A stretch of DNA of 18,364 nt from Candidatus Sulfotelmatobacter sp. (GTDB lineage: Bacteria; Acidobacteriota; Terriglobia; Terriglobales; Acidobacteriaceae). Shown piece by piece: positions 1-16,964 of the stretch. How positions within the stretch are numbered: position 1 is the stretch's first letter; each line of letters opens with the position of its first letter. Location of the stretch: NCBI GenBank assembly GCA_030037575.1, contig JASHRB010000484.1:1-18364 (forward strand), given 5' to 3'. A program made the position numbers and the translations under genes. The notes beneath the pieces are model-generated. The model did not search any database, was not told the DNA's origin, and saw only the letters and a list, made by a program, of their open reading frames with translations.

Positions 1-141
1 GATGGTGACCTGATAGCCCCAAGTCTGCAGCCAGCTTTGGAGAAGATGGCGGAAGATGGGGTCGTCTTCGGCCACGAGGACGGTAAGAGGGGACGGTGCA
101 CCGGGGCAATGGGAAGCCGGCGTGGTCGCGGCATTAGACAT
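1..141 (-). CDS. Response regulator receiver protein, N-terminal part (cut by window edge)
   Basis: Only the first 47 codons lie in the window; the gene continues beyond the left edge. After a proline-rich lead of about 18 residues comes a typical start of a CheY-like receiver domain: a hydrophobic strand (LTVLVAEDD) ending in the acidic pocket E25-D26-D27, then the helix beginning PIFRHLLQSWLQ and the next strand GYQVTI. The phospho-acceptor aspartate would lie outside the window, so the output domain is unknown. Its ATG (141-139) lies upstream of, and in another frame from, the TAA (136-134) of the preceding response regulator, so the two genes overlap by 8 bp and are probably translationally coupled in one operon. 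Family assignment is good for so short a piece because the acidic cluster and strand-helix pattern are clear. Confidence 0.7.
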   Translation of the reverse strand, partial: MSNAATTPASHCPGAPSPLTVLVAEDDPIFRHLLQSWLQTWGYQVTI

Positions 142-730
142 GGAAGTTCTCCAGGATACGGTATGCCTGCCCAGCTGGACGATCAGCCTCACGGTGAGCA
201 ACTGGGTCACGCTTGGAACCAAATGGTTCGATCAAACCGCTTTGCGAATCCGGCCCGCTGGGCGGGCGATGACGGAACGCGCTGTGAGTCAGATTGTTTC
301 CCAGGCGGTCTTCTGGTTCGGAGGCCTGGGGGTAGCGCCATTGCGAGTCAAATGGATTTTGCGAAGCCAGGATACGCTCCCCCAGCCGGATGCGGACACG
401 AAGTTCCTCGGGAACAAACGGCTTGGTGATGTAATCATCCGCGCCGGCGCGAAGACCGGAAACGATATCGGCCGAGCTGTTTCGGGAGGTGACAATGATC
501 AAATACATCGAAGACAGCAATGGGGACGATCTCACTTTGCGGCAGATTTCAGGGCCGCTGAGTCCGGGCATCACCCAGTCGAGAATGGCAAGGCGCGGCG
601 GGTTCGGGGCTTCGAGTGCGATCCAGGCCGCGTTGCCGTCGTTGGCGACCACCAGTTCGTAATGCGGCGCCAGAGTTTTCTGCAAAACGTTACTAAAGAA
701 AGCGTCGTCTTCGGCGATCAGTAACTTCAT
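134..730 (-). CDS. Single-domain response regulator with unusual C-terminal tail
   Basis: 198 residues. Residues 1-120 form a complete receiver domain: acidic pocket E7-D8-D9, phospho-acceptor D51 in the strand LAILDWVMPG, switch threonine T81 and conserved lysine K103 in YITKPF. It should take phosphate from a histidine kinase; no kinase is adjacent. Residues 121-198 match no output domain I recognise (no HTH, GGDEF, EAL or HD motif) and are rich in Pro, Arg, Ser and Asp. They could be a disordered tail or the out-of-frame remains of a lost domain; reading the other frames soon meets stops, so a single frameshift does not restore a known domain. The start is supported by GGAG seven bases before the ATG. 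The 3' end overlaps the next response-regulator gene, suggesting a tandem phosphorelay operon that continues off the window. Confidence 0.85.
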   Translation of the reverse strand: MKLLIAEDDAFFSNVLQKTLAPHYELVVANDGNAAWIALEAPNPPRLAILDWVMPGLSGPEICRKVRSSPLLSSMYLIIVTSRNSSADIVSGLRAGADDYITKPFVPEELRVRIRLGERILASQNPFDSQWRYPQASEPEDRLGNNLTHSAFRHRPPSGPDSQSGLIEPFGSKRDPVAHREADRPAGQAYRILENFHV

Positions 731-1543
731 AATTCAACTCCAGTTTGCCGCCCGTCAGCCCCGTTGTGAGCCGGCATCGGCGAGAGGCGTTACCGGAGTC
801 GTTGCAGGCGCCATGCCATGCGGGGGGAACCAGTCACGAGGAGCGGCAAGCCATTGAGTTGGAACGAGTTGAGAGCTCAGAGCGAGGAGAAGCGGGATCG
901 CAATTAGACCATGACTACCGTCCGGTTCATGGACGAGTGTCTGGTTGCTGGACGGCAAACACCTTTCATCCGTCTTTTTTGTTTTCGGCATTGTATCCGT
1001 TGAAAAGCGTGGAAGCCGATGCGGGAACCGTGCTCACCCTCTTGCACCGGCACTTTCTAGCAGTTGGCACTTCTTCGATCAGATTCACGGAGCAGGAAAT
1101 GAGCGAGTCGCCCCTCAAAAATATGGAAAATTGGACCTTCCTTAGATGAGCACTCGATCACGGAGCTGAGCAGCTTCGTATCCGATTCGTGGACGCTTGG
1201 CAAGATGGTGCACACCGACGCACGCCGGACGCTTGCGCATCCGACGGGGGCGGGGGGGTTTTTGGTTTGCACAGGTCAAGGTCGAAGGGAAACGTCTATC
1301 CAGCCTTCTCATCGTCAGCCACCCGCTGAACATGGCATCGCCCAACTATGTAGAGAGTATCCAATTAAGACCACAGACGAAATATTAGGGACAAACAATC
1401 CGAGTTTTTCAACCTGCTAGAAGCGGTCTCATAAATGGCGGTTGAACCTAGTTAACTATTTTCGGGGAGGCCATGCGAGGCCGATGGGAACTCAGCGATG
1501 CCCCATGGCAACTGGTTGCATGCAAATCTTGCTCAGGCATTTA
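731..1543. other. 813-bp gap without a supportable gene
   Basis: Open frames of 60-134 codons exist on both strands, but none has a good ribosome site, a recognisable domain or natural-looking composition, so none is called. Visible structure: a G-rich tract at 1245-1258 (five G, one C, seven G) followed by five T; a 10-bp palindrome TAGTTAACTA at 1449-1458; and a 10-bp palindrome TTGCATGCAA at 1516-1525, just beyond the stop of the leftward permease gene. The region separates two leftward units, so it should contain a terminator for the permease and a promoter for the response-regulator operon. I could identify neither with confidence; ATTGTA at 990-995 (TACAAT on the minus strand) is a possible -10 box with no good -35. 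Confidence 0.5.
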
Positions 1544-3952
1544 CTACTCGTATCGCAACGCAACCATCGGATCGACCTTCGCAGCGCGGCGAGCTGGCAG
1601 GCAGTTCGCGAGGAAGGCCACAGTCCCTAGCAGTGCGGCCACGCCTGCGAAAGTCAGAGGGTCGGTTGCCGTAATCCCAAACAGCATTCCCGAGATGAGC
1701 CGCGTCATTCCGAGCGACAGCATGGTGCCTGCCAGGATCCCCATGAGGGCGAGCGCCATTCCCTGCTTCACTACGAGCACGAGTACATCGGGATGCCGGG
1801 CTCCCAAAGCCATGCGGATACCGATTTCGTGAGTGCGTTGCGCGACCGAGTAAGACATGACGCCGTAGAGTCCGATGGCCGCAAGCAGCATGGCCACCAC
1901 GGCAAAGATGGAGAGCAGGAACATGCTGAACTTCCGAGGTTGAACGGAGTTAGCGATGAGATCCTGCATAGTGCGGAGGTTGGCGAGAGGAACATCTTTA
2001 TTCGCGCTCCAGACCACATTCTGTGCTGCCGAAGTCACGCTCGTGGCGTCAGAGGTTGCGCTCCGTATGGCCACCGACATCGACGGCCATTGCGCCTGGC
2101 CGAGCAACTGGTAGATCTCAGAGTGGGGCTCTGCATCGAGCCCGGCATGCCGTACATTACCGACGACACCAATGATCTCCAGCGTCAAGTTTTCCGGGCC
2201 GAAATGGGTGAGCTGTTTGCCGATGGGGTCCTGTCCAGGAAAAACGGTTCGCACTAGAGCATCGTTGACCAGGGCTACATTAAGCGAGCTGTTGAGATCG
2301 CTCTCGCTGAAGCCGCGGCCTTTCAGCAATGGGATTCTCATCGCACGGAAATAGCCGGGAGTGCTGACACGAACGTCCGCTTCGTAGTCCTTTTCGATTC
2401 CGGGAACATTGAAGCTGCGTGAACTATTGCTTCCAGACAGCGGCAACCTGCTGACGGCGCCTACGGACTGCACACCGGGCAACGCCTGAAGGCGCTGCAC
2501 GACTTGTTGGTAAAACGCGAGTTGGCGGACCGGATCGGTGGAGGATGGAAGTCTAAGGTTGAACGTCAAAAGATGATCTGGATCGAAGCCGACATTAACA
2601 TCCATGAGCCGGGCAAAACTCTTGATCAATAGCCCAGCCCCAACCAACAGAACTAGCGAGAGTCCAACTTCGGCGATCACCAGAGCGGAACGGGTTCGTC
2701 CTCGGTTCGCGGTGCTCCCGCGTTCGCCTTCCTTGAGGAATTCGTTGGGGCTGGATCGCGATGATTGCATAGCGGGGATCAGGCCAAACACAACTCCGGA
2801 GACAACTGAGGCCAGGAAACTGAAGGCCAACACTTCTCGGTTGATTCCAATCTGCTTGAACTGACGGATATCCGGCGGACTCAGTGCCAATAGCGACGGA
2901 ACGGCTAGGATCGCTAATAGAATCCCGAAGACTCCTCCCACTATCGCGAGCAGAACACTTTCGGTAAGCAACTGGCGGAGCAAACGCCGACGGCTCGCTC
3001 CCAGAGCCGTTCGTATTGAGATTTCTTTGGCGCGTGCTGTAGCTCGTGCCAGAAGCAGGTTGGCAACGTTCGCGCACCCGATCAGAAGCACGATGCCCAC
3101 GGTAGTTAAGAGAACGAGCAAAACCGGACGGATGTTACCGACGATATACTCCCGTAGCGGTAGAAGGCTGACGCCGACATCTCCGTTCGAATCCGGATAG
3201 AGCTTCTCCAGGCGGCCGCCGATTGTATCGAAGTCCGCGCGGGCCTGTTGCAAAGTGACTGCTGGCTTCAACCGCGCCCAGACATCAAGATAACTTCTGT
3301 CCCTGAATTGGCGCGGATCTTTGTCCGGCGCCAGAGGATGAGTGGGCACTCCCCACGGAGAGGGCAGCCACAGCTCGCCGTACCCGTCCGGAGAAAAGTT
3401 CGGCGGCATCACGCCGACAACAGTGTACTGCTCCCCATTGAGCCGGATGTCCCGGCCAATAATCGCACGATCTGCAGCAAAATAGCGCTGCCACAGGCCG
3501 TAGCCAACCACCACAACGTGATCGTTACCGGGCCGCACGTCGCTCGGTTCCAAACCGCGTCCAAGAATTGGACCTATTCCGAACAAAGGAAAGAAGCCGG
3601 GTGTGGTCATCGTGCCTTTGACCGCCTCCGGACGATCTCCCGCCGACAGGCTTCCTTGCCATCCGCGAGACGCCGCCATCTCGACGAAGACCTGGTTTTG
3701 TGAGACCCAATCCAGATAGTTGGCAGGAGAGGCGTCGTCGGTCGAAATGCCCTCGAACGTCTGCGATACCCTTACAATTTGATCCGAATCTGGGTAGGCA
3801 AGCGGATGCAACAAAACTTGATCGACCACACTGAACACCGCAGTGTTGGAGCCGATCCCCAGCGCCAGCGTGGTCACTGCCACCACCGTAAACCCGACAC
3901 TCTTAAGGAGCTGGCGCGTCGCATAACGGAGATCCTGAAACAGTCCAGTCAT
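1544..3952 (-). CDS. ADOP-family ABC transporter permease (MacB/FtsX type)
   Basis: 802 residues, full length for the acidobacterial duplicated orphan permease family. It has the MacB-like plan twice. First comes an amphipathic start (QDLRYATRQLLKS) and TM1 at about 20-42, then a periplasmic core at about 55-270, then a three-helix FtsX domain at about 275-395 containing IGCANVANLLLARA and the cytoplasmic coupling segment EISIRTALGASRRRLLRQ. The second half repeats this: TM at about 423-445, periplasmic core at about 455-675, and a C-terminal FtsX domain with HEIGIRMALGARHPDV and the ending PARRAAKVDPMVALRYE. Such permeases are thought to couple a cytoplasmic MacB-like ATPase to mechanical work in the periplasm, for export or efflux; the substrate cannot be read from sequence. 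AAGGAG at 3959-3964 on the minus strand precedes the ATG by seven bases. No ATPase or membrane-fusion gene is next to it, as usual for this family. Confidence 0.93.
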   Translation of the reverse strand: MTGLFQDLRYATRQLLKSVGFTVVAVTTLALGIGSNTAVFSVVDQVLLHPLAYPDSDQIVRVSQTFEGISTDDASPANYLDWVSQNQVFVEMAASRGWQGSLSAGDRPEAVKGTMTTPGFFPLFGIGPILGRGLEPSDVRPGNDHVVVVGYGLWQRYFAADRAIIGRDIRLNGEQYTVVGVMPPNFSPDGYGELWLPSPWGVPTHPLAPDKDPRQFRDRSYLDVWARLKPAVTLQQARADFDTIGGRLEKLYPDSNGDVGVSLLPLREYIVGNIRPVLLVLLTTVGIVLLIGCANVANLLLARATARAKEISIRTALGASRRRLLRQLLTESVLLAIVGGVFGILLAILAVPSLLALSPPDIRQFKQIGINREVLAFSFLASVVSGVVFGLIPAMQSSRSSPNEFLKEGERGSTANRGRTRSALVIAEVGLSLVLLVGAGLLIKSFARLMDVNVGFDPDHLLTFNLRLPSSTDPVRQLAFYQQVVQRLQALPGVQSVGAVSRLPLSGSNSSRSFNVPGIEKDYEADVRVSTPGYFRAMRIPLLKGRGFSESDLNSSLNVALVNDALVRTVFPGQDPIGKQLTHFGPENLTLEIIGVVGNVRHAGLDAEPHSEIYQLLGQAQWPSMSVAIRSATSDATSVTSAAQNVVWSANKDVPLANLRTMQDLIANSVQPRKFSMFLLSIFAVVAMLLAAIGLYGVMSYSVAQRTHEIGIRMALGARHPDVLVLVVKQGMALALMGILAGTMLSLGMTRLISGMLFGITATDPLTFAGVAALLGTVAFLANCLPARRAAKVDPMVALRYE

Positions 3953-5371: not shown

Positions 5372-5647
5372 ATGCGTGGAAAAGACGAGCAACAACTGGA
5401 TGTCTTCAGCTATGTCAGCCCGGAGCAGCGAGTGCCGCAGGACCACCCGTTGCGGTCGCTGCGCTCCATGACCGATGAGGCATTGCGAGATTTGCAGCCA
5501 CGGTTCAACAAGCTGTATGCCAAAACTGGACGCCCCCCGATTGCGCCGGAGAAGTTATTGCGGGCGCTGCTGCTGCAAGCGCTGTACTCGGTGCGCAGCC
5601 AGCGCATGTTAATGGAACAGCTCGACTGTAGTTCTGCGTGTAAATAG
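5372..5647 (+). pseudogene. Truncated insertion-sequence transposase (IS1182/IS5-like N-terminus)
   Basis: 91 codons corresponding to the N-terminal quarter or less of a DDE transposase with the DUF772-type start: MRGKDEQQLDVFSYVSPEQRVP, then DHPLRSLRSMTDEALRDL, then GRPPIAPEKLLRALLLQALYSVRSQRMLMEQLD. In intact members this is followed by a tyrosine-rich FRWFVGL-type segment and the catalytic DDE domain of a 350-480 residue protein. Here the similarity stops at LMEQLD (about 5622), four more codons are unrelated and a TAA follows. No further transposase remains are seen before the activator gene ends at 5689, and no terminal inverted repeats were found. It cannot transpose on its own. The truncation lies 42 bp from the 3' end of the neighbouring leftward gene, so this is a deletion scar of an old insertion. 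Confidence 0.85.
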
Positions 5648-5688: not shown

Positions 5689-7065
5689 CTAAACCGGCTT
5701 GCTTTCTTCTTCGATCTTCATTTTCGACAACATCTGGTAGATGGTGGCGCGGCCGATGCCGAGAATCTCCGCGGCACGGGCCTTGTGTCCGCCCACCGCT
5801 TCGAGAACGTGAAGAACGTGGCGTTTCTGCATTTCTTCCATGGAGAGGAGGGGCTCGGTCGAAGTGGTTCCGAGGCTTACGGGAGCGCGCAGATTCTCCG
5901 GCAGATCAGAGCCATCGATGAGGTTCCCCTCCGCCATCATGCAGGCGTTTCCAATGACATTTTCCAGTTCGCGAATATTGCCCGGCCACTGATATGCCGC
6001 CATAACAGTCTGAGCCCGCCGGGTGAGGCCGAAAATCGGCTTGCCATACTCGGCGGCAAATTTTTCCACAAAGTGTCTCTGCAGCAACGGCAAATCCTCG
6101 CGACGGCTGGCCAGACTGGGAAGCGTGATTTCCACGATCGCCAGGCGGTAATAGAGATCTTCGCGGAATTGTCCCGAGCGCACCATCGCCTTCAGATCGC
6201 GATGCGTCGCCGCCACTACGCGGACATCGATGCTGCGCGGCGTAACCGAGCCGACGCGCTGCACCTGACGATTCTGCAGGACCCGCAACAGCTTGGCTTG
6301 CGCGCTGGGAGAGAGTTCGCCGATTTCATCGAGAAAGATGGTTCCACCGTCGGCATGCTCGAACAGTCCGGGCTTATCCTGCAGGGCGCCGGTAAAGGCT
6401 CCGCGAACGTAGCCGAACAGTTCGCTCTCCAGAAGATTTTCCACCAGCGCCGAACAATTGCAGACGGCAAATTTGCCCTTCGATACGGGGCTGCGGCGGT
6501 GCAGCGCCTGCGCCACAAGCTCTTTGCCGGTGCCGGTGGCGCCGGTCACCAGCACAGTCCGGAAGTGCGCGGCAATTCGGCGAATTCTGGCGAAAACATC
6601 AAGCATCAGCGGGCTCCGGCCAACCAAGCCCTCGAACTGGTAGGCGTCCAGAAGCTCGCGATCGAGCCGCAAAGTGGCCCGCCGCCGCGCGGCATCGCCC
6701 AGCAGCCCAGAGATGCGGGTCCGAAGTTTTTCGACGTCGAGCGGCTTGGTCCAATAGTCGGACGCACCTTTCTGAATGGCCTCGACGGCGGATTCGGGGG
6801 AGTAATGACTGGTGAGCAAAATCACGTCGGTGACGGGATCGAGCGTGACGATGCGCTCCAGAATCTCAATGCCGCTTTGATGGGGCATGATGAGGTCAAG
6901 CAGGACCACCCGGGGACGGATCTTTTGAAAGGTTGCGAAGCCCACCCGCGGATCGACGGCGGTGAGGACTTCAACATCCATCGGTTCGAGCGCTGCGCGA
7001 ACCAGCTCTAAGTTCTCCGCGCTGTCGTCGATCGCCAGTAATGTAAGTGCTTTCGGCTCGCTCAT
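5689..7065 (-). CDS. NtrC-family sigma-54-dependent response regulator
   Basis: 458 residues with the complete three-domain layout. Receiver (about 8-122): acidic pair D13-D14, phospho-acceptor D57, T85, K107 in YWTKP. AAA+ sigma-54 interaction domain (about 145-390): Walker A GATGTGKE (175-182), the sigma-54-contacting loop GAFTGA (222-227), Walker B GTIFLDEIGE (241-250), arginine-finger region REDLYYRL (301-308), and WPGNIRELENV (360-370). C-terminal Fis-type helix-turn-helix (about 425-450): GHKARAAEILGIGRATIYQ. Every residue needed to activate sigma-54 RNA polymerase is present. It would bind an upstream site as a dimer, assemble into a ring when phosphorylated and use ATP to open sigma-54 promoters. 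AGGAG at 7072-7076 supports the start. It is divergent from the secreted repeat protein, and no kinase is adjacent on its own strand. No gene symbol is justified. Confidence 0.95.
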   Translation of the reverse strand: MSEPKALTLLAIDDSAENLELVRAALEPMDVEVLTAVDPRVGFATFQKIRPRVVLLDLIMPHQSGIEILERIVTLDPVTDVILLTSHYSPESAVEAIQKGASDYWTKPLDVEKLRTRISGLLGDAARRRATLRLDRELLDAYQFEGLVGRSPLMLDVFARIRRIAAHFRTVLVTGATGTGKELVAQALHRRSPVSKGKFAVCNCSALVENLLESELFGYVRGAFTGALQDKPGLFEHADGGTIFLDEIGELSPSAQAKLLRVLQNRQVQRVGSVTPRSIDVRVVAATHRDLKAMVRSGQFREDLYYRLAIVEITLPSLASRREDLPLLQRHFVEKFAAEYGKPIFGLTRRAQTVMAAYQWPGNIRELENVIGNACMMAEGNLIDGSDLPENLRAPVSLGTTSTEPLLSMEEMQKRHVLHVLEAVGGHKARAAEILGIGRATIYQMLSKMKIEEESKPV

Positions 7066-7331
7066 TGGACGCTCCTGGCCGCGAGCTCATTCAGCGGCGC
7101 GGCGGAGGATGCGATGCGGACGAGCAAATCGAGAGGAGTTCGGCGATAGAGCCGCGCAGAAAAACACTTTTCGCAGATTCGGTGGATCGATGATACCGCG
7201 CTACCGAACATCTGGAATCCCTCCCTGCAATGCGCGAACGCAAGCAACGCCGTGCGCTGAGCCGGGGCGAAAGCCACTTTCACTCCCCAAATCGCGAGCT
7301 TCCCACCGCAGGGAAAAAGCCTTGTGGCCAG

Positions 7332-7360
7332 CTTACAGCAGAATGGACGGCTGGAGTCAA
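7332..7360 (-). promoter_or_regulatory. Candidate sigma-70-type promoter for the NtrC-family gene
   Basis: On the minus strand, TTGACT (7360-7355) and TGTAAG (7337-7332) are separated by exactly 17 bp, matching the housekeeping consensus at five and four of six positions. Transcription would start near 7325 and leave a leader of about 260 bases before the activator's ATG. This is a by-eye match and could be chance. Confidence 0.3.
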
Positions 7361-7471
7361 GCGCGAAGGCGGCGGAGATGCTTGACCAGAATGGTGACCG
7401 AAGCGAGCCATCGAAATCTGAATTGACCGAGCGCTATGTAAAGTTATTTCATCGTCTAAATCTCAGATGGG

Positions 7472-7495
7472 CAAAGTAACCGGTTACTTACTTTG
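7472..7495. promoter_or_regulatory. 16-bp perfect palindrome nested in a 24-bp inverted repeat; candidate activator-binding site
   Basis: AAGTAACCGGTTACTT at 7474-7489 is a perfect 16-bp palindrome. It overlaps a second symmetry, CAAAGTAA (7472-7479) and TTACTTTG (7488-7495), whose 8-bp arms are separated by 8 bp, so the GTAA/TTAC half-site can pair in two registers. It lies between the divergent NtrC-type gene and the secreted repeat protein, about 165-190 bp upstream of the sigma-54-like promoter. That is within the usual range for enhancer-type sites bound by the Fis-type domain of such activators. The site is directly visible; which protein binds it is inferred. Confidence 0.5.
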
Positions 7496-7645
7496 TCGGA
7501 GATCGAGTGCTGGGTTCTACAGATCGGACAGAATCTAGAAATCAGACACCTGCACCCCACTCCCTGCTTATTCGGAATTTAACGAAATGCCGATAAGTTG
7601 CTAAGGGCAAGCCACTTGGCGGATGGCGTTCCACTGTCCTCGGTT

Positions 7646-7661
7646 TGGAACGCCCAATGCA
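7646..7661 (+). promoter_or_regulatory. Candidate sigma-54 (-24/-12) promoter for the secreted repeat protein
   Basis: TGGAACGCCCAATGCA matches the consensus TGGCACG-N4-TTGCW at 10 of 12 defined positions. It has the invariant GG and GC exactly 10 bases apart; the mismatches are A for C in the -24 box and A for the first T of the -12 box. The predicted transcription start is near 7672, giving a leader of about 54 bases before the ATG at 7726. Matches of this quality are expected a few times by chance in a window this size. The value lies in the position: directly before a gene that is divergent from a sigma-54 activator. Confidence 0.45.
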
Positions 7662-7670
7662 TTCTCGAAA

Positions 7671-7690
7671 GGTGCCGCTTCGGCGGCGCC
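7671..7690 (+). promoter_or_regulatory. UUCG-capped hairpin in the 5' leader
   Basis: GGUGCCGC and GCGGCGCC form eight consecutive pairs (one G-U) closed by a C(UUCG)G tetraloop, one of the most stable RNA loops known. The predicted transcription start (about 7672) falls at its base, so the mRNA would begin with this hairpin. The ribosome site GAGGGGA lies about 23 bases after it. A role as a 5' stabiliser or a translation modulator is inferred. Confidence 0.5.
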
Positions 7691-7725
7691 CTCCCCAAAA
7701 CTTTGAAATGCGAGGGGAAACAACC

Positions 7726-10700
7726 ATGCGACTCCAAACTCTAGCGAAGATACTCATTGCCGTAATGATGGGCATGTTACCTGCGACGGCACAACAGTCG
7801 GTCTCGGCGCCCGTGGCCGCGCGTGCAGTCCAGAATTACGCGCGCTTGCCGCTGACCTTCGAGGCAAATCAGGGGCAGACCTCCAGCCAGGTGAAATTTC
7901 TTTCTCGTGGGAATGGATACACCGCATTCCTGACGGCCGGGGGAATGGTCTTGAATCTCCGCACTTCGGTAGAGCCGGTTGGGCAAGCGAACTCTGCGGC
8001 TGCGAGCGCGCAGGCGACCAGCACGACGCTGCAGTTTCGGCTGCTCGGCGCCAACCAGAATCCGAGCGTCGTGGGTGAGGAGCAGCAACCGGGCCGCGTG
8101 AATTACTTTCTCGGCAACGACCGTTCAAAGTGGCACACCAACGTGCCGACTTACAGACAGATTCGATACAAGAACGTCTATCCCGGAATCGATCTGATTT
8201 ACTACGGCAATCATCAGCAACTCGAATATGACTTCGCCATCGCGCCGGGAGTTGATTCGCGGCAGATTCAATTTGAAATCCGGGGCGCCAACCAGGTTTC
8301 GCTGGACGAGCAAGGAAACTTGGTGCTGGCCACCAACGGGGCGAAGCTCCACTTTCAAACTCCGGCGGTCTATCAGGAATCGAAGGGGCAGCGCGTGCCG
8401 GTGGTTGGCAGTTATGTGATGAAGGATTCTTCCCACATCGGTTTTCAGCTTGCAGACTACGACTCGAGCAAACCACTGGTGATCGATCCGGTGCTGGTGT
8501 ACTCCACTTATTTGGGGGGAAGCGGCACCGATCAGGCTTCGGGCATCGCCGTCGATGGCAGCGGCAACGTTTATATCACGGGCTACACGACTTCGGCGAA
8601 CTTTCCCTTGGCTGCGCTGGGCTCGCTGCCCAGCGGTGACAACCACGTTTTCGTGGCCAAGCTGAATGCGAGCGGATCGAATCTGGATTACGCCGACTAC
8701 CTCGGGGGCAACAGCCAGGATTACGGCATGGCGCTGGCGCTCGACAGCGCCGGCGAAGTTTATGTAACCGGCAGCACCATGTCGAGCAATTTCCCGACGG
8801 TGAATGCGTATCAATCGCAACTGGCGGGGCCCTACAACGGATTTCTCACCAAGATTTCGGCGGATGGATCGTCGGTGATGTACTCGACCTATCTCGGTGG
8901 AAACAGCTTCGATCAGCCCACCGGCATTGCCCTTGACAGCGCCAACGAAGCCTATGTCGCCGGCTATACCATGTCGACGAATTTTCCCACTGCCAACGCT
9001 TACCAGAGCACCGCATTGGCAAACCAGGGCGGTGAATATGGCGACTACGGTTTTCTGACCAAGTTCAGCTCGGATGGATCTTCGCTGGTCTATTCGACTT
9101 ATTTCGCGGGCAATACCAACGTCGTCCAGAACTGCGGCAGCCCTTGCTATCCCGCGCCCTACAACGCGATCAGCGCAATCGCCGTGGATGCAAACGGTAA
9201 CGCTTACCTTACCGGCAGCACGAACACATCGAACTTCCCGGTCACTGCGGGCGCATACATTACCAGCAACCCCACCCAATACGACGCCACCCTGGGATTC
9301 GTGAGCAAGTTCGGCAGTGCAGGCAGTCTTGAGTACTCGACCTATTTTTACGGATCGAGCGGAAACTCGCTCAGCATGTCGGCAATCGCCGTCGACTCGA
9401 CCGGCTCGGCCTATGTGACGGGCGCGGCGCAAAGTGATGGAACCTTTCCGGTGACTTCCACCAGCATCTGCGATCCCAACACCTACGGATTTTCGTGCAG
9501 CTACGCCTTTGTCACCAAGTTCGATCCGGCGGGAGCCACGTTGACCTACTCAACATTTCTTGGGCTGTACAACTACGCCACCCCGCAGGCGATTGCCCTC
9601 GATGCGAGCGGCGATGCCTACGTGCTGGCGGCGGTAAACGGCGGCGGATACCAGGCGGTCAACCCGATCGAGTCGTACAGCAGCGGCTCGGACCTGCTGG
9701 TGGTGGAGATTGATCCGGCGGCCACTACGCAACTTTTCTCCACTTACCTGGGCGGAAGCGGAGACGACTACCCAGCCGGTTTAGCCCTCGATTCCGAGGG
9801 CAACATTTACCTGGATGGCTCGACCACGTCGTCGGATTTTCCCACGACCGAGGGATCTCTGCAGGACCAACTCGGCGGAGGCACCGATGCTTTTGTGATG
9901 AAGATTGGTGCGGCCTCGGCGCCGTTTGTTTCGCTGAGCCCCAGTGGGTTGCAGTTTGCGGCTTTGGCGATCGGCTCGACCAGCCGGCCGCAAACTGTAA
10001 CGCTGCGCAACATGGGCAGCGAAGCCATGTCGATCGATTCGATCACGGCTTCCGGAGATTTTGCGGAGACCAACACCTGCGGAAGCAGCGTGGCGGCGGC
10101 GGGAAGCTGCACGCTTTCGATCACGTTCACTCCTACGGCCGCGGGTGCAAGCAATGGATCGGTTGCGATTGCGGATAATGCGGCGGGATCTCCGCATTCC
10201 ATCATCCTCTATGGCGTTGGCGAAAGCAGCAGCGGCCCCGCCGCGGTCCTGATGCCTAGCGCCCTCGCATTCTCGAGCGTTCCTCTGGGCCGGTCCGGGA
10301 TTGCGCAAACGGTGACGCTGACCAACGGCGGAAACGCTTCGTTGAGCGTCAGCTCCATTCAGACTTCGGGCGATTTCTCGCAAACCAACAACTGCGGAAG
10401 CACGCTGACCGCGGGCGCCAGCTGTTCCATCAACGTGGTGTTCACTCCAACCGCGGCGGGGGCCCGCAGCGGCAGCTTAACCGTTGCCGACAATGCGGCG
10501 GGCAGTCCGCAGAGCTTGAGCCTGAGCGGAACAGGCGCGGCGGCAAACCTGGTGTTTTCGCCCAGCGCCGTAACCTTCTCAAATGTGATGCTGGGATCAA
10601 GCGCGTCGCAGGCGGTCACGCTAGCGAACGCCGGCAACGCCGATATCGACCTCAACAACATACAAATCACGGGAGGGTTCGTACAAACCAACAACTGCCC

Positions 10701-11673
10701 GGGCCTGCTGGTGGCCGGGGGGAATTGCACCATCAACCTGTCGTTCACACCGAGCACAACGGCTACAAGCAGCGGTAACCTGACGGTCGTGTATGGAGCG
10801 CAGAATACGCTGTTAACCATGAGCATCTCCGGAAATGGCGCCGTGGCGGATCTGGTGGTCACGCCGACCAGCATCACCTTCTCCAGCGTAGCTCTGGGGC
10901 TCACCAGCAGTTCCCAGACCGTGACCCTGAGCAATACGGGCAACGGATCGTTGACCGTCAGCAATCTTCAGATCACGGGCAACTATAAACAAACCAATAA
11001 CTGCCCGGCGACGCTGGCCGCCGGCGCCAGCTGCGCCATCAGCGTGGTATTCACGCCCACCGCGACCGGAACCGCCAGCGGCAGCCTGAGCGTCAGCGAT
11101 AGCGCGGGCGCCTCCCAGACGGTGAGCTTGTCGGGAACCGGAGCCGATTTCACTCTGTCAACTACAACCAGCTCGAACACCATTCAGCCGGGAGCAAGCG
11201 CGACTTACACCCTATCGGCATCCGCGGTGGGAGGATCGTTCAACAACCCGGTGACCCTTGGTTGCAGCGGATTGCCGGCGGAGGCAACGTGCAGCTTCTC
11301 GCCCAGCACGGTAACTCCTGGCTCCACCAAGGCAACGACAACCCTGACCATCACGACCACCAGCTCCATCGCTGAAGATATGCCGGCCATTCCTTCGCGG
11401 CAGAAGCCGGCGGGGCAGATCTGGATGCAGTTGCAAGGACTGGGAGTGGTCGGAATGGTGCTGGCGAAGCGAGGCAAGCGCTCCAAGCGGGCGGCGATCT
11501 TGATCCTGCTGGCCTTGATGGTTCTGGGCATGATCTTCATGTCCGGTTGCGCTGGTGGAACGGGAATTGCCCCGAGCCAGACCTCGACCACGCCGCAGTC
11601 GTACACGATCACCGTGACCGGCACTTCCGGATCGCTGCAGCACTCGGTAACGGTAACCTTGACTGTGGAATAG
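7726..11673 (+). CDS. Secreted SBBP beta-propeller / ASH-repeat surface protein
   Basis: 1315 residues from the ATG at 7726. This start is chosen because a signal peptide begins there (MRLQTLAKILIAVMMGMLPATA, cleavage near ATA-QQ) and GAGGGGA lies 9-10 bases upstream; the frame stays open back to a TTG at 7645, but that would bury the signal sequence and overlap the promoter. Order of parts: a conserved N-terminal domain (about 25-250; LPLTFEANQGQT, NGYTAFLTAGG, YPGIDLIYYG); seven SBBP repeats (257-731); four ASH/choice-of-anchor-D Ig-like repeats (734-1140), each with a two-cysteine TN(N/T)C...C signature; then an Ig-like C-terminal module interrupted by a basic stretch (AKRGKRSKRA) and a hydrophobic segment ending in a lipobox-like MSGC (C1275). 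It probably acts outside the cell as a structural or adhesive protein. The binding partner is unknown. Confidence 0.93.
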   Translation: MRLQTLAKILIAVMMGMLPATAQQSVSAPVAARAVQNYARLPLTFEANQGQTSSQVKFLSRGNGYTAFLTAGGMVLNLRTSVEPVGQANSAAASAQATSTTLQFRLLGANQNPSVVGEEQQPGRVNYFLGNDRSKWHTNVPTYRQIRYKNVYPGIDLIYYGNHQQLEYDFAIAPGVDSRQIQFEIRGANQVSLDEQGNLVLATNGAKLHFQTPAVYQESKGQRVPVVGSYVMKDSSHIGFQLADYDSSKPLVIDPVLVYSTYLGGSGTDQASGIAVDGSGNVYITGYTTSANFPLAALGSLPSGDNHVFVAKLNASGSNLDYADYLGGNSQDYGMALALDSAGEVYVTGSTMSSNFPTVNAYQSQLAGPYNGFLTKISADGSSVMYSTYLGGNSFDQPTGIALDSANEAYVAGYTMSTNFPTANAYQSTALANQGGEYGDYGFLTKFSSDGSSLVYSTYFAGNTNVVQNCGSPCYPAPYNAISAIAVDANGNAYLTGSTNTSNFPVTAGAYITSNPTQYDATLGFVSKFGSAGSLEYSTYFYGSSGNSLSMSAIAVDSTGSAYVTGAAQSDGTFPVTSTSICDPNTYGFSCSYAFVTKFDPAGATLTYSTFLGLYNYATPQAIALDASGDAYVLAAVNGGGYQAVNPIESYSSGSDLLVVEIDPAATTQLFSTYLGGSGDDYPAGLALDSEGNIYLDGSTTSSDFPTTEGSLQDQLGGGTDAFVMKIGAASAPFVSLSPSGLQFAALAIGSTSRPQTVTLRNMGSEAMSIDSITASGDFAETNTCGSSVAAAGSCTLSITFTPTAAGASNGSVAIADNAAGSPHSIILYGVGESSSGPAAVLMPSALAFSSVPLGRSGIAQTVTLTNGGNASLSVSSIQTSGDFSQTNNCGSTLTAGASCSINVVFTPTAAGARSGSLTVADNAAGSPQSLSLSGTGAAANLVFSPSAVTFSNVMLGSSASQAVTLANAGNADIDLNNIQITGGFVQTNNCPGLLVAGGNCTINLSFTPSTTATSSGNLTVVYGAQNTLLTMSISGNGAVADLVVTPTSITFSSVALGLTSSSQTVTLSNTGNGSLTVSNLQITGNYKQTNNCPATLAAGASCAISVVFTPTATGTASGSLSVSDSAGASQTVSLSGTGADFTLSTTTSSNTIQPGASATYTLSASAVGGSFNNPVTLGCSGLPAEATCSFSPSTVTPGSTKATTTLTITTTSSIAEDMPAIPSRQKPAGQIWMQLQGLGVVGMVLAKRGKRSKRAAILILLALMVLGMIFMSGCAGGTGIAPSQTSTTPQSYTITVTGTSGSLQHSVTVTLTVE
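8494..9918 (+). repeat. Seven tandem SBBP (beta-propeller) repeats
   Basis: Seven units of roughly 60-80 residues share the pattern (Y/F)ST(Y/F)LGG...D...(G/A)IA(V/L)D..GN.Y(I/V/L)TG.T.S.NFP...A(F/Y)V.K(F/I/L). Units 4 and 5 carry cysteine-containing insertions (NCGSPC; CDPNTYGFSC). Unit 6 is the most degenerate, having lost the NFP turn. Seven blades is a common number for a closed propeller. Confidence 0.85.
9925..11145 (+). repeat. Four tandem ASH-type Ig-like repeats of about 100 residues
   Basis: Units begin near 9925, 10240, 10546 and 10849. Each reads (L/V)xPSxLxFxxVxLG..S..QTVTL.N.G...LS(V/I)..I...G.F..TNNC...L.AG.SC.I.V.FTPTA.G..SG.L.(V/I).D.A......LSGTG. The paired cysteines are kept in all four, suggesting a conserved disulfide in an extracytoplasmic protein. 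Unit 3 has drifted most, having lost the NxAxGSP strand. Confidence 0.85.
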
Positions 11674-11680
11674 CCCCGGC

Positions 11681-11728
11681 GCTGACCTAAGTGGCGAAGT
11701 TAGTCGCCCCACCCCCGCTTAGGTCAGC
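11681..11728 (+). terminator. Long two-tier hairpin after the secreted protein gene
   Basis: An 11-bp perfect outer stem, GCTGACCTAAG (11681-11691) with CTTAGGTCAGC (11718-11728), encloses an inner stem GGCGA/TCGCC (11693-11697 and 11704-11708). It starts seven bases after the stop codon. No T-run follows, so it is not a classical intrinsic terminator; it could be a 3' mRNA stabiliser, a hairpin-only terminator or a processing site. Confidence 0.45.
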
Positions 11729-11853
11729 CCTCCTCCAACTACGTTATTAGGTCGGCTATGCCCTTGTTAAGGATGACTTAGGTAATTAGCATCTTCTAAA
11801 TTTCCGTGCGATGTTGAGGAAAATACAACCACAAATAGTAGGTATTCTTACAA

Positions 11854-12861
11854 ATGCGCTCTCAGTCCCATCTGTTGGTGACTGGAACCATCTTGGTCGC
11901 GGACGATCAGGCAGCGAACCGAGAACTGCTCGATGAGTTCCTCTCAGCACAAGGCTTCACCGTGATTACCGCCGCCGACGGCGCTTCCGCGCTGGAAGCA
12001 CTGGCCCACCATCAAATCGACCTGGTGCTGCTCGACGTCATGATGCCGAAGCTGAGCGGCTTCGAGGTGTGCGAAAGGATCAAGAACGCGGGAGAAACGG
12101 AACTGATTCCAGTGGTGCTGATCACGGCGCTCTCCGATAAAGACGATCGCCTCAAAGGGATCAGCGTGGGCGCAGATGACTTCCTCACTCGTCCCGTCGA
12201 TTTGAGCGAGTTGCTGGCGCGCGCGCGCTCGCTCTTGAAGTTGAAACACCGTACCGACGAACTGGAGCGCGCCGAGTCGGTTCTATTTTCGCTGGCGCGA
12301 AGCATTGAGAGCAAAGATCCCTATACTCACGGTCATTGCGAGCGCTTGTCCGACTACTCGGTGAATTTGGCCCGTCAAGTAGGTTTGTCGCCGGAAGAGA
12401 TTACCGCTTTGCGCCGGGCCGGCGTGGTTCACGATATCGGCAAAGTTGCGGTTCCCGACGCGATTCTGCTAAAGCCGGGGCGGCTCACCGAGGACGAATG
12501 GAAGGTTATCCGCCAGCACCCGATCGTGGGCGAGCGGATCTGCGAGCCCTTGAAATCCTTCCGCCTGGTTCTGCCCATCATCCGGCACCATCACGAAAAA
12601 TATAACGGCATGGGTTATCCCGATGGCTTGCGCGGCGAGGCCATCCCCACGGGTGCGCGAATCCTGCAAATTGTGGATGTTTTCGATGCGCTGACTACGG
12701 AGCGTCCCTATAAGCGGGCGCTTCCCATGGAGGAAGCTTTGGCGGTGATGCGGGAGGAAGTCGGTAAAGGCTGGTGGGATGCAAAGATTTTTCAGCACTT
12801 CGAAGCGCTGATCAGGCGGGATGCGGAGAATTCGCGCCAGAGCCATGCCGCCGGCAGATAG
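11854..12861 (+). CDS. Response regulator with HD-GYP domain (cyclic-di-GMP phosphodiesterase)
   Basis: 335 residues. Receiver domain at about 12-128: acidic pocket D17-D18, phospho-acceptor D61 (LVLLDVMMPKLSG), T91; the usual lysine is an arginine (R113 in FLTRPVD). HD-GYP domain at about 140-325 with all metal and substrate signatures: the H161 region (PYTHGHCERLS), H193-D194 in VVHDIGKVAVPD, H222 in RQHPIVGERI, H245-H247, GMGYPDGL (252-259) with the GYP motif, and DVFDALTTERPYKRALP (275-291). Such proteins linearise and hydrolyse cyclic-di-GMP, lowering the signal that drives adhesion and biofilm growth; phosphorylation at D61 would control this. The start lacks a strong Shine-Dalgarno; a GTG at 11878 is an alternative. 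The histidine kinase gene follows after 88 bp on the same strand and is the likely partner. Confidence 0.93.
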   Translation: MRSQSHLLVTGTILVADDQAANRELLDEFLSAQGFTVITAADGASALEALAHHQIDLVLLDVMMPKLSGFEVCERIKNAGETELIPVVLITALSDKDDRLKGISVGADDFLTRPVDLSELLARARSLLKLKHRTDELERAESVLFSLARSIESKDPYTHGHCERLSDYSVNLARQVGLSPEEITALRRAGVVHDIGKVAVPDAILLKPGRLTEDEWKVIRQHPIVGERICEPLKSFRLVLPIIRHHHEKYNGMGYPDGLRGEAIPTGARILQIVDVFDALTTERPYKRALPMEEALAVMREEVGKGWWDAKIFQHFEALIRRDAENSRQSHAAGR

Positions 12862-12949
12862 GCGGAAAACCTGGCTCCGCGGGGAACTTCGGGCCGCCGG
12901 CAAATTCAAAGGACGGGGGAGAGAACGAACCCACGACACGGACTTCCGT

Positions 12950-15841
12950 ATGATGCGGGGAAAGATCGGACGATGGGCTTCCAAAACCGCGCCCCGGTTT
13001 TATCTTTTCTTAGTGGTGCTGATGCTGTTGCCCATCAGCATCTTCGCTTACACGGTGGCGAATATGCTGCGCCGGCAGGCCATGCGGCAGGCGGCCACGG
13101 AGGGATCGCAGATCGCGCGAGTTTCCTCGGAATTGCTGGCAGAATATTTCCGGCAAAGCAGCGCATTTCTCCAGTCGATTGCCACCCGCCCGGCCTTCGC
13201 GCGAGCCTGGGAAAAAAGCGATAGAGAATCATTGCAGGCAGAGCTGCAACAGGCCAGCAGCTTACGCCCGGATTTTCAATTTTTCAGCGTCTTCGATCTC
13301 GCCGGTAGGCTGCGCGGGATCTATCCCCCTGAACCGGCGCTGCTCAATCACAATTTCGCCTTTCGGGATTGGTATAAGGGCCTGACGCGGACCAAGAAGC
13401 CTTATGTTTCCGATGTCTATCGGACTGCGATTCCGCCATTTCCTCTGGTCACCGCCATTGCCGTTCCTCTTAAAGACGATTCCGGCAGGATCACCGGCAG
13501 TTTGGTGGCGCCATTTTCCATCGACTCCCTCAATCGGCGGTTGGGAGAAACCGAATTCGACGGGGGCTGGACGATTTCGATGGTCGACCAGGATGGACAC
13601 CTTTCCGCCCGGCCCAACATCAATTCGTTCTCGCCGCCGGTAGATCTGAGCAGGTATGGGCCGGTGAAGCTCCTGCTCGGGGGACGATCGGGCTCGGGCA
13701 TATTCACCCGCGACGGGACCCGGTTTTTCGCCGGCTACCAGCCCATCGAAGTGTGGGGCTGGGGAGTCCTGGTGGAAAAGCCGGCCGCCGCGCTCGAACA
13801 AAGCCTCTGGGCGGTGGAGCGCGGGGTCTGGCTGCTCGGATTCGTATTCCTTGTTCTGGGACTTGGGGTCAGCACTTTCATGGGGTGGCTCTATTCGCAA
13901 TTCGACAAGGGAAATCGCTTCATTGAATTATCCATGGACATGTTCTGTGTGGCTGGCTTCGATGGCTACTTCCAAAGTGTGAATCCGGCGTTCGAGAAGA
14001 TCCTCGGCTTTACGGCAAAAGAGATGATGGCCACGCCCTATGTGGGATTTGTGCATCCCGAGGACCGCGAGGCCACGCTGCGCGAGAGCAGCCGACTGGA
14101 AACGGGCGAAGTCACTTTTGCCTTGGAAAACCGATACCTATGTCAGGACAACACCTACAAATGGATCCTGTGGAATGCGGTGTCGGTGCCGGAGAAATCG
14201 CTCATTTACGCAGTGGGGCGCGACATCACCGGGCGGAAACGGGTGGAGGAGGAACGGCAGAGGTTCGCCCTTGAACTGGAAAACACAAATGCCGAACTGG
14301 AAATACGCAACCAGGAAGCGGAGCGGGCCACAAAATTGAAGAGCAAGTTTCTGGCTAACATGAGCCATGAGTTGCGCACTCCGCTGAACGCCATCATAGG
14401 ATTTTCCGATCTTCTGGCCGAGGGAACGGCAGGAAAGCTCAATGCCAAGCAGGAGCGTTTTGTAAATCACATCAAGCAAGGCTCGCACCATTTGCTCCAG
14501 CTCATCAATGACATACTCGATCTTTCCAAGATAGAAGCCGGGCAACTCGAGCTGCGCTGCGAAGACTTTCTGGTCGGGGAGGCGCTGCCCGAAGTCCTTT
14601 CGAACATTCGGCCGCTGGCGATGGTCAAGAACATTGAGGTGCGGCAGAAGGTGGAGATCGAACACGCGGTTTTCGCCGACCGGGTCCGGTTCAAACAGAT
14701 TCTCTACAACTTGCTCAGCAACGCGGTGAAATTCACGCCGAAAGGCGGGAAGATCGAGGTGGTGTGCACCGAACAAGGGGACTGCGCGAGCATCTCCGTG
14801 GCCGATACCGGCATTGGAATTCGCGCGGAGGATCAGTCCGTGATTTTTGAGGAGTTCCGCCAGGTTGACGATCCGCCGGGGGAAACGCACGAGGGAACAG
14901 GATTGGGCTTGGCCATTACCAAGCGCCTGGTGGAGCAGCAGAAGGGACAAATTGTTCTTGAAAGCGCTCCCGGAAAAGGCAGCCGCTTTACCTTCACCAT
15001 GCCGCTGGGCGGGCAAACGGCGGGCGATCGGCCGGTGAGCAAACCGGCCACAGAGAGTCCGCGCGCGTCTGCGGTGGGCAAGCCGCTGATCATGATTGTC
15101 GACGACGAAGGTCCGGCCAAGGAGCTTCTGGCCAGCTATCTCAGCCCCGATTACCGGATTGTAACCGCCAGTTCGGGCGCGGAAGCTCTGGAGAAGGCAC
15201 AGCTTCTCCGTCCGGATGCCATCACCTTGGATGTGCTGATGTCGGGCGGCAACGGCTTTGAAACCCTGGCGCGTCTGCGGCAGACGCGGGAATTCGCCGG
15301 CACACCTATTATTATCGTCTCGATTGTCGATGAGCAGCGGGTGGGATTCGCACTGGGAGCGGCGGATTATCTGATCAAGCCCATTCGCAGGCCGCTGCTG
15401 CTTGAAACCCTGCGCAAGCATGTGCCCTCGCAACCCGACGACGACGATTCGATCCTGCTGGTGGACGATGACCCGAAAACCCTGGAGCTTCTGAGCGAAA
15501 CGTTGCGCTCTGCGGGATACGAGACGCAGAGCGTGCAGAGCGGCGAGAGAGCCCTGGAAGTGCTCTCCTCGAAAATGGTGAGCGCGGTCATGCTGGATTT
15601 GTTGATGCCGGGAATGGATGGTTTCGAGGTTATTCAGCACCTCCGGAAGGAACCCACATTGAAAAATTTGCCCATTTTTGTGATGACCGGCAAAACCTTG
15701 ACCAGCGAAGAGTCGTCGCTTCTCGCCCAGGAAACGCAGGCGCTGTTTCACAAAAGTGGGGCGTGCCGCGAGCAGTTGATCAGCGAAGTGGGGCGCGTGC
15801 TGCAAGCGCGCAAGCGGGCCGCAGCTGCCGGAAACACCTAG
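12950..15841 (+). CDS. Membrane hybrid histidine kinase with two receiver domains
   Basis: 963 residues from the ATG at 12950. The frame is open from 12821, but the extra N-terminus is basic, not protein-like, and overlaps the previous gene; an ATG at 12953 is equally possible. No good Shine-Dalgarno is seen. TM1 at about 16-37; a Cache-type extracytoplasmic sensor at about 45-285 (FRDWYKGLTRTKKPYVSDVY, VTAIAVPLKD); TM2 at about 292-315. Cytoplasmic part: PAS at about 322-432, a coiled linker, HisKA with H473 in ANMSHELRTPLN, then HATPase with the N box at N591 (NLLSNAVKFTP), G1 VADTGIGI and G2 GTGLGLAI. Two receivers follow: D761 (in LDVLMSGGNG, where the usual Pro after LM is Ser) and D883 (in LDLLMPGMDG). 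There is no HPt domain, so onward transfer needs a separate protein. It senses a small extracellular ligand, identity unknown, and probably feeds the HD-GYP regulator upstream. Confidence 0.93.
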   Translation: MMRGKIGRWASKTAPRFYLFLVVLMLLPISIFAYTVANMLRRQAMRQAATEGSQIARVSSELLAEYFRQSSAFLQSIATRPAFARAWEKSDRESLQAELQQASSLRPDFQFFSVFDLAGRLRGIYPPEPALLNHNFAFRDWYKGLTRTKKPYVSDVYRTAIPPFPLVTAIAVPLKDDSGRITGSLVAPFSIDSLNRRLGETEFDGGWTISMVDQDGHLSARPNINSFSPPVDLSRYGPVKLLLGGRSGSGIFTRDGTRFFAGYQPIEVWGWGVLVEKPAAALEQSLWAVERGVWLLGFVFLVLGLGVSTFMGWLYSQFDKGNRFIELSMDMFCVAGFDGYFQSVNPAFEKILGFTAKEMMATPYVGFVHPEDREATLRESSRLETGEVTFALENRYLCQDNTYKWILWNAVSVPEKSLIYAVGRDITGRKRVEEERQRFALELENTNAELEIRNQEAERATKLKSKFLANMSHELRTPLNAIIGFSDLLAEGTAGKLNAKQERFVNHIKQGSHHLLQLINDILDLSKIEAGQLELRCEDFLVGEALPEVLSNIRPLAMVKNIEVRQKVEIEHAVFADRVRFKQILYNLLSNAVKFTPKGGKIEVVCTEQGDCASISVADTGIGIRAEDQSVIFEEFRQVDDPPGETHEGTGLGLAITKRLVEQQKGQIVLESAPGKGSRFTFTMPLGGQTAGDRPVSKPATESPRASAVGKPLIMIVDDEGPAKELLASYLSPDYRIVTASSGAEALEKAQLLRPDAITLDVLMSGGNGFETLARLRQTREFAGTPIIIVSIVDEQRVGFALGAADYLIKPIRRPLLLETLRKHVPSQPDDDDSILLVDDDPKTLELLSETLRSAGYETQSVQSGERALEVLSSKMVSAVMLDLLMPGMDGFEVIQHLRKEPTLKNLPIFVMTGKTLTSEESSLLAQETQALFHKSGACREQLISEVGRVLQARKRAAAAGNT

Positions 15842-16224
15842 GTTCGACGCGAAACCCTCCCCGAGCTATGGTTGGATGGCCAGTGAAAACGGGTTCGCGA
15901 CCCGCAGCCCGTCCATCCCCCGGCCGGTTTGCCTATCCTCTGCGAAGAGTGCGTCCGATGCAGCCGGTCCCGCCTGGGGAAATCACCCGCGGCCATGCGC
16001 CCCTGGGAAAAAAAGGTTTGGCACTGGGCATGTCATCCCTTCTGCCTTCCTTCCGCCCCGGGGGTCGAATAACTCATTCCGATTATTGACCCTCCACGGT
16101 TGACTCACGGTAATCGCGAGCCTCGGGGGCGGCGCAAGCAATTTCCGAGATCACAAGCTGTGGTTGCCGCCTTCCGATGCGCGCATTCCGGAGAGACACC
16201 ATCGTCGTGGGAGCGGGAGAATAC
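15842..16224. other. 383-bp gap with hairpins and possible promoter elements
   Basis: No gene. A short hairpin CGGGT-N5-ACCCG lies at 15890-15904, 48 bases after the kinase stop, without a T-run. A perfect -24 box TGGCAC at 16019-16024 is followed by a poor -12 box (ATGT where TTGC is expected). TTGACC (16086-16091) and GGTAAT (16109-16114), 17 bp apart, offer a competing housekeeping-type promoter. None is decisive. Confidence 0.4.
16060..16094 (+). promoter_or_regulatory. Bulged hairpin upstream of the TonB receptor gene
   Basis: GGGTC-G-AATAA (16062-16072) pairs with TTATTGACCC (16083-16092) apart from one bulged G, around a 10-base loop; two flanking pairs (one G-U) may extend it. It lies 130 bases before the receptor start. 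It could be the end of the kinase transcript or a leader structure; the right arm overlaps the candidate -35 box TTGACC, so on DNA it may instead be an operator. Confidence 0.35.
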
Positions 16225-16494
16225 GTGAGGTTTTCGAAAGCTTTGAGGTATTGCTTGTTGTTGGTCTTTTCAGCGGCAACCAGCCAGGCACAACAAATTA
16301 CCGCCAACATTCGTGGAACCGTGACCGACACCAGCGGAGCCGTGGTGCAATCGGACCTGGTAAGCGCCCAGGACATCGAAACCGGACTCGCACGCAGCAC
16401 CGCCTCCGATCAAAACGGCAGCTATTTGCTGCTCGAACTGCCCGTCGGACACTATCAACTCGAAGTTGTGGCCAAGGGATTTCTCTGGACGTAA
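16225..16494 (+). CDS. Receptor fragment 1: signal peptide and carboxypeptidase-regulatory-like domain
   Basis: Encodes QQITANIRGTVTDTSGAVV, then the strands of a CarboxypepD_reg-like domain up to GSYLLLELPVGHYQLEVVAKGF, then two foreign codons and TAA. The frame can be extended upstream to an ATG at 16177, but the signal peptide and the ribosome site favour the GTG at 16225. On its own it would be a short secreted Ig-like peptide. It is treated as the 5' part of the broken receptor. Confidence 0.7.
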   Translation: MRFSKALRYCLLLVFSAATSQAQQITANIRGTVTDTSGAVVQSDLVSAQDIETGLARSTASDQNGSYLLLELPVGHYQLEVVAKGFLWT

Positions 16495-16964
16495 ACCAGA
16501 CCGCGACGATTGCTGTGCGTTTGCAAGTTGGTTCGGAGACCCAGCAAGTCGAAGTCAAGGCAAATGCCACGCTCGTGCAAAACACGTCGAGCAGTCTCGG
16601 CGAGACCGTGATGCAGCGAGAGATTCTCGACTTGCCGCTGGACGGGCGCAATTTTTCTCAGCTCGGAGTGCTGCAACCCGGGGGGGGTGCCGCTGATCCC
16701 CGGACTTCTCGAAGCCGGCGGCCCGGCGCGGCCGAATCAGGCCTACGCGGTCGATGGCCAGCGGCCGGAGTCGAACAATTTTCTGATCGACGGCGCCGAC
16801 AACGTTAGCGCGGTAGACGGTGGATTCGTGCTCAAGCCGCCCATCGACGCTATCGAAGAGTTCCGCATCATGACGCATAACGCCAACGCGGAGTTTGGGC
16901 GCAACACCGGCTCAACCACCAATATCATCACGCGCAGCGGGACCAATTCGTTTCACGGCGCCCC
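16475..16964 (+). pseudogene. Receptor fragments 2 and 3: end of the Ig domain and TonB plug
   Basis: From 16475 to about 16680 one frame gives QGISLDVNQTATIAVRLQVG and then LDLPLDGRNFSQLGVLQPGG, the end of the regulatory-like domain and the start of the plug. After the eight-G run the next frame gives VPLIPGLLEAGGPARPNQAY, AVDGQRPESNNFLIDGADN, AIEEFRIMTHNANAEFGRNT and NIITRSGTNSFHGA, the diagnostic plug signature of the Oar-like family. It breaks at the C-run 16961-16964. Confidence 0.75.

Follow-up and report, generated by a model that had tools for sequence, protein, structure and literature searches.

Predicted sigma-54 control of a giant SBBP protein gene by a neighbouring NtrC-type activator in Candidatus Sulfotelmatobacter

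The window analysed here, a stretch of 18,364 nt from Candidatus Sulfotelmatobacter sp. (contig JASHRB010000484.1), one of a group of soil bacteria not yet in culture, carries a gene for an NtrC-type response regulator and, divergent from it, a gene for a giant exported protein with SBBP repeats. Comparison of related loci indicates that this regulator very probably drives the SBBP gene through a sigma-54 promoter box and a pair of tandem dyads upstream of it, and that it likely drives a number of signalling genes as well. A sequence-only reading of the window had proposed that the NtrC-type activator controls the SBBP gene through sigma-54; the proposal is now strongly supported, though not proven, by linkage, by co-occurrence across genomes and by promoter conservation. 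The principal elements are as follows.

5689 to 7065 (-): NtrC-type activator with a receiver, a sigma-54 AAA+ domain with GAFTGA and a Fis helix-turn-helix (domain matches, motif reading)
7515 to 7529 (+): upstream dyad 1, TTCT-N7-GGAC, candidate activator site (motif search, alignment)
7533 to 7547 (+): upstream dyad 2, ATCT-N7-AGAC, candidate activator site (motif search, alignment)
7594 to 7599 (+): middle block TAAGTT (consensus TAAGTC), a candidate element seen in alignments
7644 to 7661 (+): -24/-12 element TTTGG-N9-TGCA (GG-N10-GC) (consensus scan, comparison across loci)
7726 to 11673 (+): exported SBBP protein with DUF7948, SBBP repeats, four choice-of-anchor D/ASH domains and a lipo-invert C-terminal anchor (model matches)

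Promoter box and tandem dyads

The -24/-12 element named in the sequence-only reading, TGGAACGCCCAATGCA, is present at 7646-7661, but by consensus counting it is unremarkable in the window, where 28 sites with up to three mismatches compare with 32.6 expected and so do not exceed chance. A weighted box score in the 300 bp before the SBBP gene gave p = 0.003 (300 Markov samples), and most of the relatives' upstream regions were not significant when scored locus by locus. A scan of the window's own genome, with 171 TT[TC]GG-N9-TGC[AT] strings in 4.25 Mb on both strands (about 0.012 per 600 bp of single strand), was uninformative by itself. Since single-locus scans were mostly not significant, the box is convincing only by comparison across loci. 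In the 600 bp leading up to the DUF7948 codons, TT[TC]GG-N9-TGC[AT] was found at 15 of 17 activator-linked SBBP genes, at four of five SBBP genes elsewhere that are of the same subfamily or second copies, and at one of 53 other DUF7948 genes; GG-N10-GC was kept in all 17 linked loci. These 75 genes come from 128 DUF7948 matches in the genus, the extra ones having been taken from the top of the list and a control stretch without a DUF7948 gene (L141) having been left out, and DUF7948 genes are present in all 45 genomes of the genus that were searched.

The 260 bp upstream of the box in 19 promoters were searched by palindromic expectation-maximisation against four letter-shuffled controls, which leave the shared ancestry of the promoters in place. 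The motif scored 51.1 at width 16 (24.4-27.5 in the controls) and 72.2 at width 20 (33.6-37.9), and alignment gave two tandem dyads, GTCY-N7-RGAC, spaced 18 or 19 bp. NtrC sites are 15-bp dyads similar to these. The best tandem dyad starts 123-134 bp upstream of TTYGG in all 19 promoters, weakly so at locus L168, with a shuffle p of 0.04 or less in 18 of them. The window dyads end about 96 bp before the box and lie at roughly -156 to -124 relative to the predicted start.

A full architecture was defined as a tandem dyad with at least 13 of 16 positions followed 105-165 bp on by GG-N10-GC[AT]. It precedes all 17 activator-linked SBBP genes, four of the five same-subfamily or second SBBP genes elsewhere (L168 fails) and none of the 53 other DUF7948 genes (Fisher p 1e-17, taking no account of relatedness); of all DUF7948 genes examined, those of this SBBP subfamily are the only ones to have it. 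At a stricter threshold of 14 of 16 positions, 23 activator loci contain 21 instances, of which 14 stand before SBBP genes, and one shuffle of each of those loci gave none. Loci L076, L093 and L110 provide a fairer test because the dyad rule was derived from 19 of the loci; these three lay outside that motif set, yet pass.

The loci compared are related, hence not independent, and the box alone does not exceed chance in the window, so that box and dyads might be leftovers of shared intergenic ancestry while a housekeeping promoter drives the gene. We consider this highly improbable: the flanking intergenic DNA has diverged and the elements stand out from it, box and start codon lie anywhere from 77 to 174 bp apart while the spacing of dyad and box stays within the narrow range given above, and the same architecture precedes other genes.

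The sequence-only reading had assigned the activator to a different site.

7474 to 7489 (no strand): palindrome AAGTAACCGGTTACTT, probably not the main activator site (palindrome scan, cross-locus comparison)

The palindrome exists as described, and the window contains no other perfect one of 16 bp (mean of 0.33 in shuffled windows); in 2000 shuffles of the 660-bp gap a perfect one arose in 1.35%. GTAA-N4-TTAC counterparts of it recur upstream of the box in L072 and L073, lying 156-168 bp before the box in these and the window. Against its being the main activator site, which appears very unlikely, these are the only counterparts among the other 16 linked loci, so that 14 of the 17 yielded none whereas the tandem dyad is found in all 17, and even among the three loci the distance to the box varies by 12 bp. 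Of the three elements whose joint conservation the sequence-only reading had put up as a check, activator and -24/-12 box are conserved together, but the palindrome is not conserved with them; it may be a lineage-specific extra site. Two other sites in the window's genome match it with two mismatches, one beside a pilin-like gene and the second beside a gene that we take to be ftsZ, and they formed no pattern.

The middle block between dyads and box is possibly a bending-protein site. Sigma-54-type boxes before a small Ala/Val/Lys-rich peptide were also seen at L251 557-637 (-), L252 3641-3717 (-) and L253 5065-5140 (-), with a similar TAAGTT...TTG middle block, without dyads, and in genomes without a detected activator; the block may be a general architectural element.

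Activator linkage and further copies of the promoter

The sequence-only reading was borne out on the proteins themselves: the activator domains were matched, with GAFTGA intact and a Fis-type helix-turn-helix, and the gene is divergent from that of the 1315-residue protein. The activator is of the NtrC type by its receiver with Asp at the acceptor position, its AAA+ domain and its helix-turn-helix, and the recognition helix is similar across most orthologues in the genus. Its nearest named relatives lie on contigs titled Candidatus Sulfotelmatobacter or Acidobacteriaceae. RpoN, whose presence had been left as a question, is encoded in the same assembly (E = 5.7e-59), which consists of 751 contigs and is 82% complete. 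In the exported protein, models for DUF7948, SBBP, choice-of-anchor D and lipo-invert all score above cut-off, with six SBBP and four ASH/choice-of-anchor D stretches and the lipo-invert anchor at the C-terminus at 97.7 bits (cut-off 37). The lipo-invert tail was also present in all seven relatives scanned; for the eight SBBPs scanned with NCBIfam no PEP-CTERM model was listed, and lipo-invert was found in all eight.

An activator match at E <= 1e-110 was obtained in 21 of the 45 genomes, with 59-79% identity besides the window itself, and a truncated copy of 79% identity in G042 raises the number to 22. A looser recheck of 15 of the 24 genomes without a first match gave best matches of about 40% identity, G042 excepted. 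Seventeen of the genus's 24 activator loci (the window, L072-L093 and L111) include an SBBP gene in the stretch fetched. In five (the window, L072, L073, L074 and L111) activator and SBBP gene are arranged back to back, no more than about 1.3 kb apart; in the remaining linked loci the SBBP gene is downstream or some kilobases off. Seven activator loci have no SBBP gene in the fetched stretch, and in three of these genomes (G011, G023 and G033) a same-subfamily SBBP gene preceded by the promoter is present on a different contig (L110, L112 and L113).

A sequence-only promoter model of 156 positions, built from 18 promoters, was used to search the 45 genomes with stricter filters. It identified 28 places at E <= 1e-3, namely the 18 training promoters and ten others. 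Five of the ten precede SBBP genes (G036 C429, L110, L093, L168 and L076); the rest comprise two in G032, one at a contig end in G036, one in G021 before a PAS-GGDEF-EAL gene, and one in G034, a partial match before a small unrelated peptide. Partial matches in G034 and G030, in which the dyad part is missing and a small Ala-rich peptide lies behind, were not counted. Matches beginning in the dyads occur in 22 genomes and reach the box in 21, the match in G031 stopping at position 128 with the box found separately. The promoter is therefore present in 22 genomes, the activator in 22 (one partial) and both in 21 of the 45 (Fisher p 1.3e-10, relatedness uncorrected). G032 retains its two promoters (L249 2104-2251 and 5701-5843 (+)) before what appear to be decayed SBBP pieces.

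The window itself contains a second promoter of this type.

920 to 953 (-): second tandem dyad, GTCC-N7-AGAC and GTCC-N7-GGAC, 16 of 16 positions (dyad scan)
803 to 818 (-): second -24/-12 element, TGGCATGGCGCCTGCA (consensus and dyad scans)
134 to 730 (-): stand-alone receiver gene behind the second promoter (domain match; related gene in L072 and L073)

In L072 and L073 the related receiver gene follows a similar region in which, read by eye, the second dyad has an 8-base spacer, and which the model matches at E 0.098 and, partially, 0.115. Elsewhere in the relatives the architecture precedes PilZ genes in L093 and in L085, where the box follows after 108 bp, a PAS hybrid kinase gene in L077, a PAS-receiver gene in L083 and the GGDEF-EAL gene in L079; the gene order in L077 and L083 is hybrid kinase, receiver-PilZ, activator, SBBP. 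The sequence-only reading had described activator and surface protein as a self-contained switch, which proves too narrow. Because the same architecture stands before these signalling genes, it points to a putative regulon around two-component and cyclic di-GMP (c-di-GMP) signalling rather than to a closed two-gene switch.

Several observations weigh against control by the neighbouring activator. The dyad rule and its threshold of 13 were set after most of the loci, themselves related, had been viewed, and L168 has the box with a weak dyad (12 of 16, p = 0.24). The second window promoter matches the model at E = 0.016. Distances among activators and among their linked SBBPs correlate weakly (Spearman 0.24 over 14 loci, a value reached in 195 of 2000 permutations). 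The 23 activator loci from beyond the genus, or presumably so (20 of 31 places in other genera, plus L029, L030 and L041), yielded no DUF7948 gene, some of these stretches being shorter than 8 kb; given that result the pairing of activator and SBBP looks like a feature of the genus. In one genome, G014, the promoter and an SBBP gene occur with no orthologous activator found, and in another, G022, the activator (59% identity) occurs with no promoter. The window's own genome holds 15 further matches to sigma-54 activators at E < 1e-50. The two nearest activator relatives (L072 6997-8364 and L073 7096-5729) have GAFTDA in place of GAFTGA. The corresponding substitution, G266D, is described in passages of PMC2941729 as giving a signal-independent NorR, and by this analogy the activators of L072 and L073 may be constitutively active.

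The further activators and the case of G014 are also what would be expected if the promoter and its dyad enhancer were real but served by another of the genome's sigma-54 activators. We regard this alternative as unlikely, in view of the 21 genomes that hold promoter and activator together with one exception each way, the linkage of activator and SBBP gene in 17 of 24 loci, and the rechecked genomes, whose matches of about 40% identity leave the partial G042 copy as the only close one. Control by the neighbouring regulator is accordingly kept as the preferred explanation, and standard sigma-54 activation fits it because enhancer, spacer, -24/-12 element and a nearby response regulator are laid out in that manner. 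We infer the steps of binding, phosphorylation (with the identity of the kinase), looping and transcription, and likewise surface location and function, in the following form. The response regulator, presumably phosphorylated, would bind the tandem dyads at 7515-7547 and loop across the intervening DNA, its AAA+ domain opening the promoter, so that sigma-54 polymerase acting at 7644-7661 would begin the transcript at about 7671. From the promoter at 953-803 (-) it would probably also drive the receiver gene, and in the relatives the PilZ, GGDEF-EAL, PAS-receiver and hybrid-kinase genes. Display of a giant anchored protein, presumably at the cell surface, would in this way come under control, alongside c-di-GMP signalling parts.

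Leader and neighbouring genes

Three further features lie within or behind the SBBP transcription unit predicted here.

7671 to 7690 (+): leader hairpin with UUCG loop at the predicted transcript start (folding; close relatives)
11854 to 12861 (+): receiver-HD-GYP protein, 180 bp past the SBBP stop (domain matches; order kept in L072 and L073)
12821 to 15841 (+): dCache-PAS histidine kinase with two receiver domains, start codon uncertain (domain matches)

The leader hairpin had been noted in the sequence-only reading and is indeed present, but is limited to six close loci, with some imperfect copies; a search of the 45 genomes allowing up to two mismatches found it exact in three. It was dropped as a mechanism because covariation was no better than in shuffles (163/500). 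For the three closest loci a second hairpin is predicted across the ribosome site, with energy z from -2.2 to -3.3; the corresponding values in L074 and L112 are -0.3 and -1.3. An Rfam scan of 7066-7900 returned no family at E up to 1.

The order SBBP gene, receiver-HD-GYP gene, kinase gene is common to the window, L072 and L073, and no terminator-like site was found in 11600-12000, a stretch that spans the gap between the first two. Upstream of the activator gene a TTCCC-N6-GGGAA dyad at about 7300-7316 is shared by the same three loci and is possibly a site controlling the activator gene itself. A broken transposase-like reading frame at about 5500-5646 (+), read by eye and presumably IS5-like, adjoins the 3′ end of the activator gene. 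Near the locus lies a MacB/FtsX-type permease gene (1544-3952 (-)). A gene for a TonB-type outer membrane protein (16177-18364 (+)) is spread over several overlapping frames, the last with an OMP_b-brl_4 match, suggesting frameshifts or assembly errors.

Relation to known systems and meaning

The best NCBIfam models for the activator were AtoC (408 of 714 bits) and PrsR (TIGR02915, 390 of 502.6 bits), both below cut-off. With AtoC/NtrC-type response regulators it shares the order of receiver, AAA+ domain with GAFTGA and Fis helix-turn-helix, but by the NCBIfam cut-off it is not AtoC, and its target and site sequence differ. The exported protein shares DUF7948, SBBP, choice-of-anchor D and lipo-invert with known SBBP/lipo-invert proteins (PF06739, NF058595).

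The closest known system is control of PEP-CTERM proteins by PrsK/PrsR and RpoN, which likewise has an NtrC-type response regulator, an upstream site with a -24/-12 element, exported targets with a C-terminal sorting domain and a matching phylogenetic profile. Passages of Haft 2006 (PMC1569441) report that, of 167 proteobacterial PEP-CTERM genes, 99 are preceded by a motif 1 of 17 nt and a sigma-54 motif 2, with the motifs found only in Proteobacteria and the regulator profile matching, and passages of PMC9850573 describe RpoN dependence as demonstrated for Aquincola pepA. The present host, in contrast, is an acidobacterium; the site is a tandem GTCY-N7-RGAC whose end lies about 96 bp from the box, whereas the PrsR motif, by its text description in PMC1569441, ends in TTTACA with a mean spacer of 62.8 nt; and SBBP, choice-of-anchor D and lipo-invert domains make up the target in place of a PEP-CTERM domain. 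Since activator score, target domain and site sequence all fall outside PrsR/PEP-CTERM proper, the predicted system is a distinct acidobacterial variant of PrsR/PEP-CTERM-like control.

In the literature searched, with subscription papers mostly outside it, no report was found of sigma-54 control of SBBP/lipo-invert genes, and no account of control of any kind for DUF7948/SBBP proteins; a text search of a 2025 sigma-54 regulon survey (PMC12316311) finds neither Acidobacteria nor SBBP. A bolder reading, offered tentatively and on balance doubtful, is that in Acidobacteriota the display of giant lipo-invert anchored propeller proteins is tied to c-di-GMP signalling (PilZ, GGDEF-EAL, HD-GYP) by a genus-level sigma-54 regulon that a tandem-dyad enhancer of its own defines. 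It would stand as an independent counterpart to the PrsR/PEP-CTERM regulon of Proteobacteria, and GAFTDA may have made it signal-independent in the nearest relatives.

The predicted enhancer and promoter would provide a handle on the timing of SBBP production, and would tie SBBPs to two-component and c-di-GMP genes. They suggest a second form of sigma-54-controlled anchored surface proteins, in another phylum and with another anchor than PEP-CTERM. This would fit the proposal, set out in passages of PMC3162934 that do not mention Acidobacteria, that sigma-54 mainly controls the bacterial exterior.

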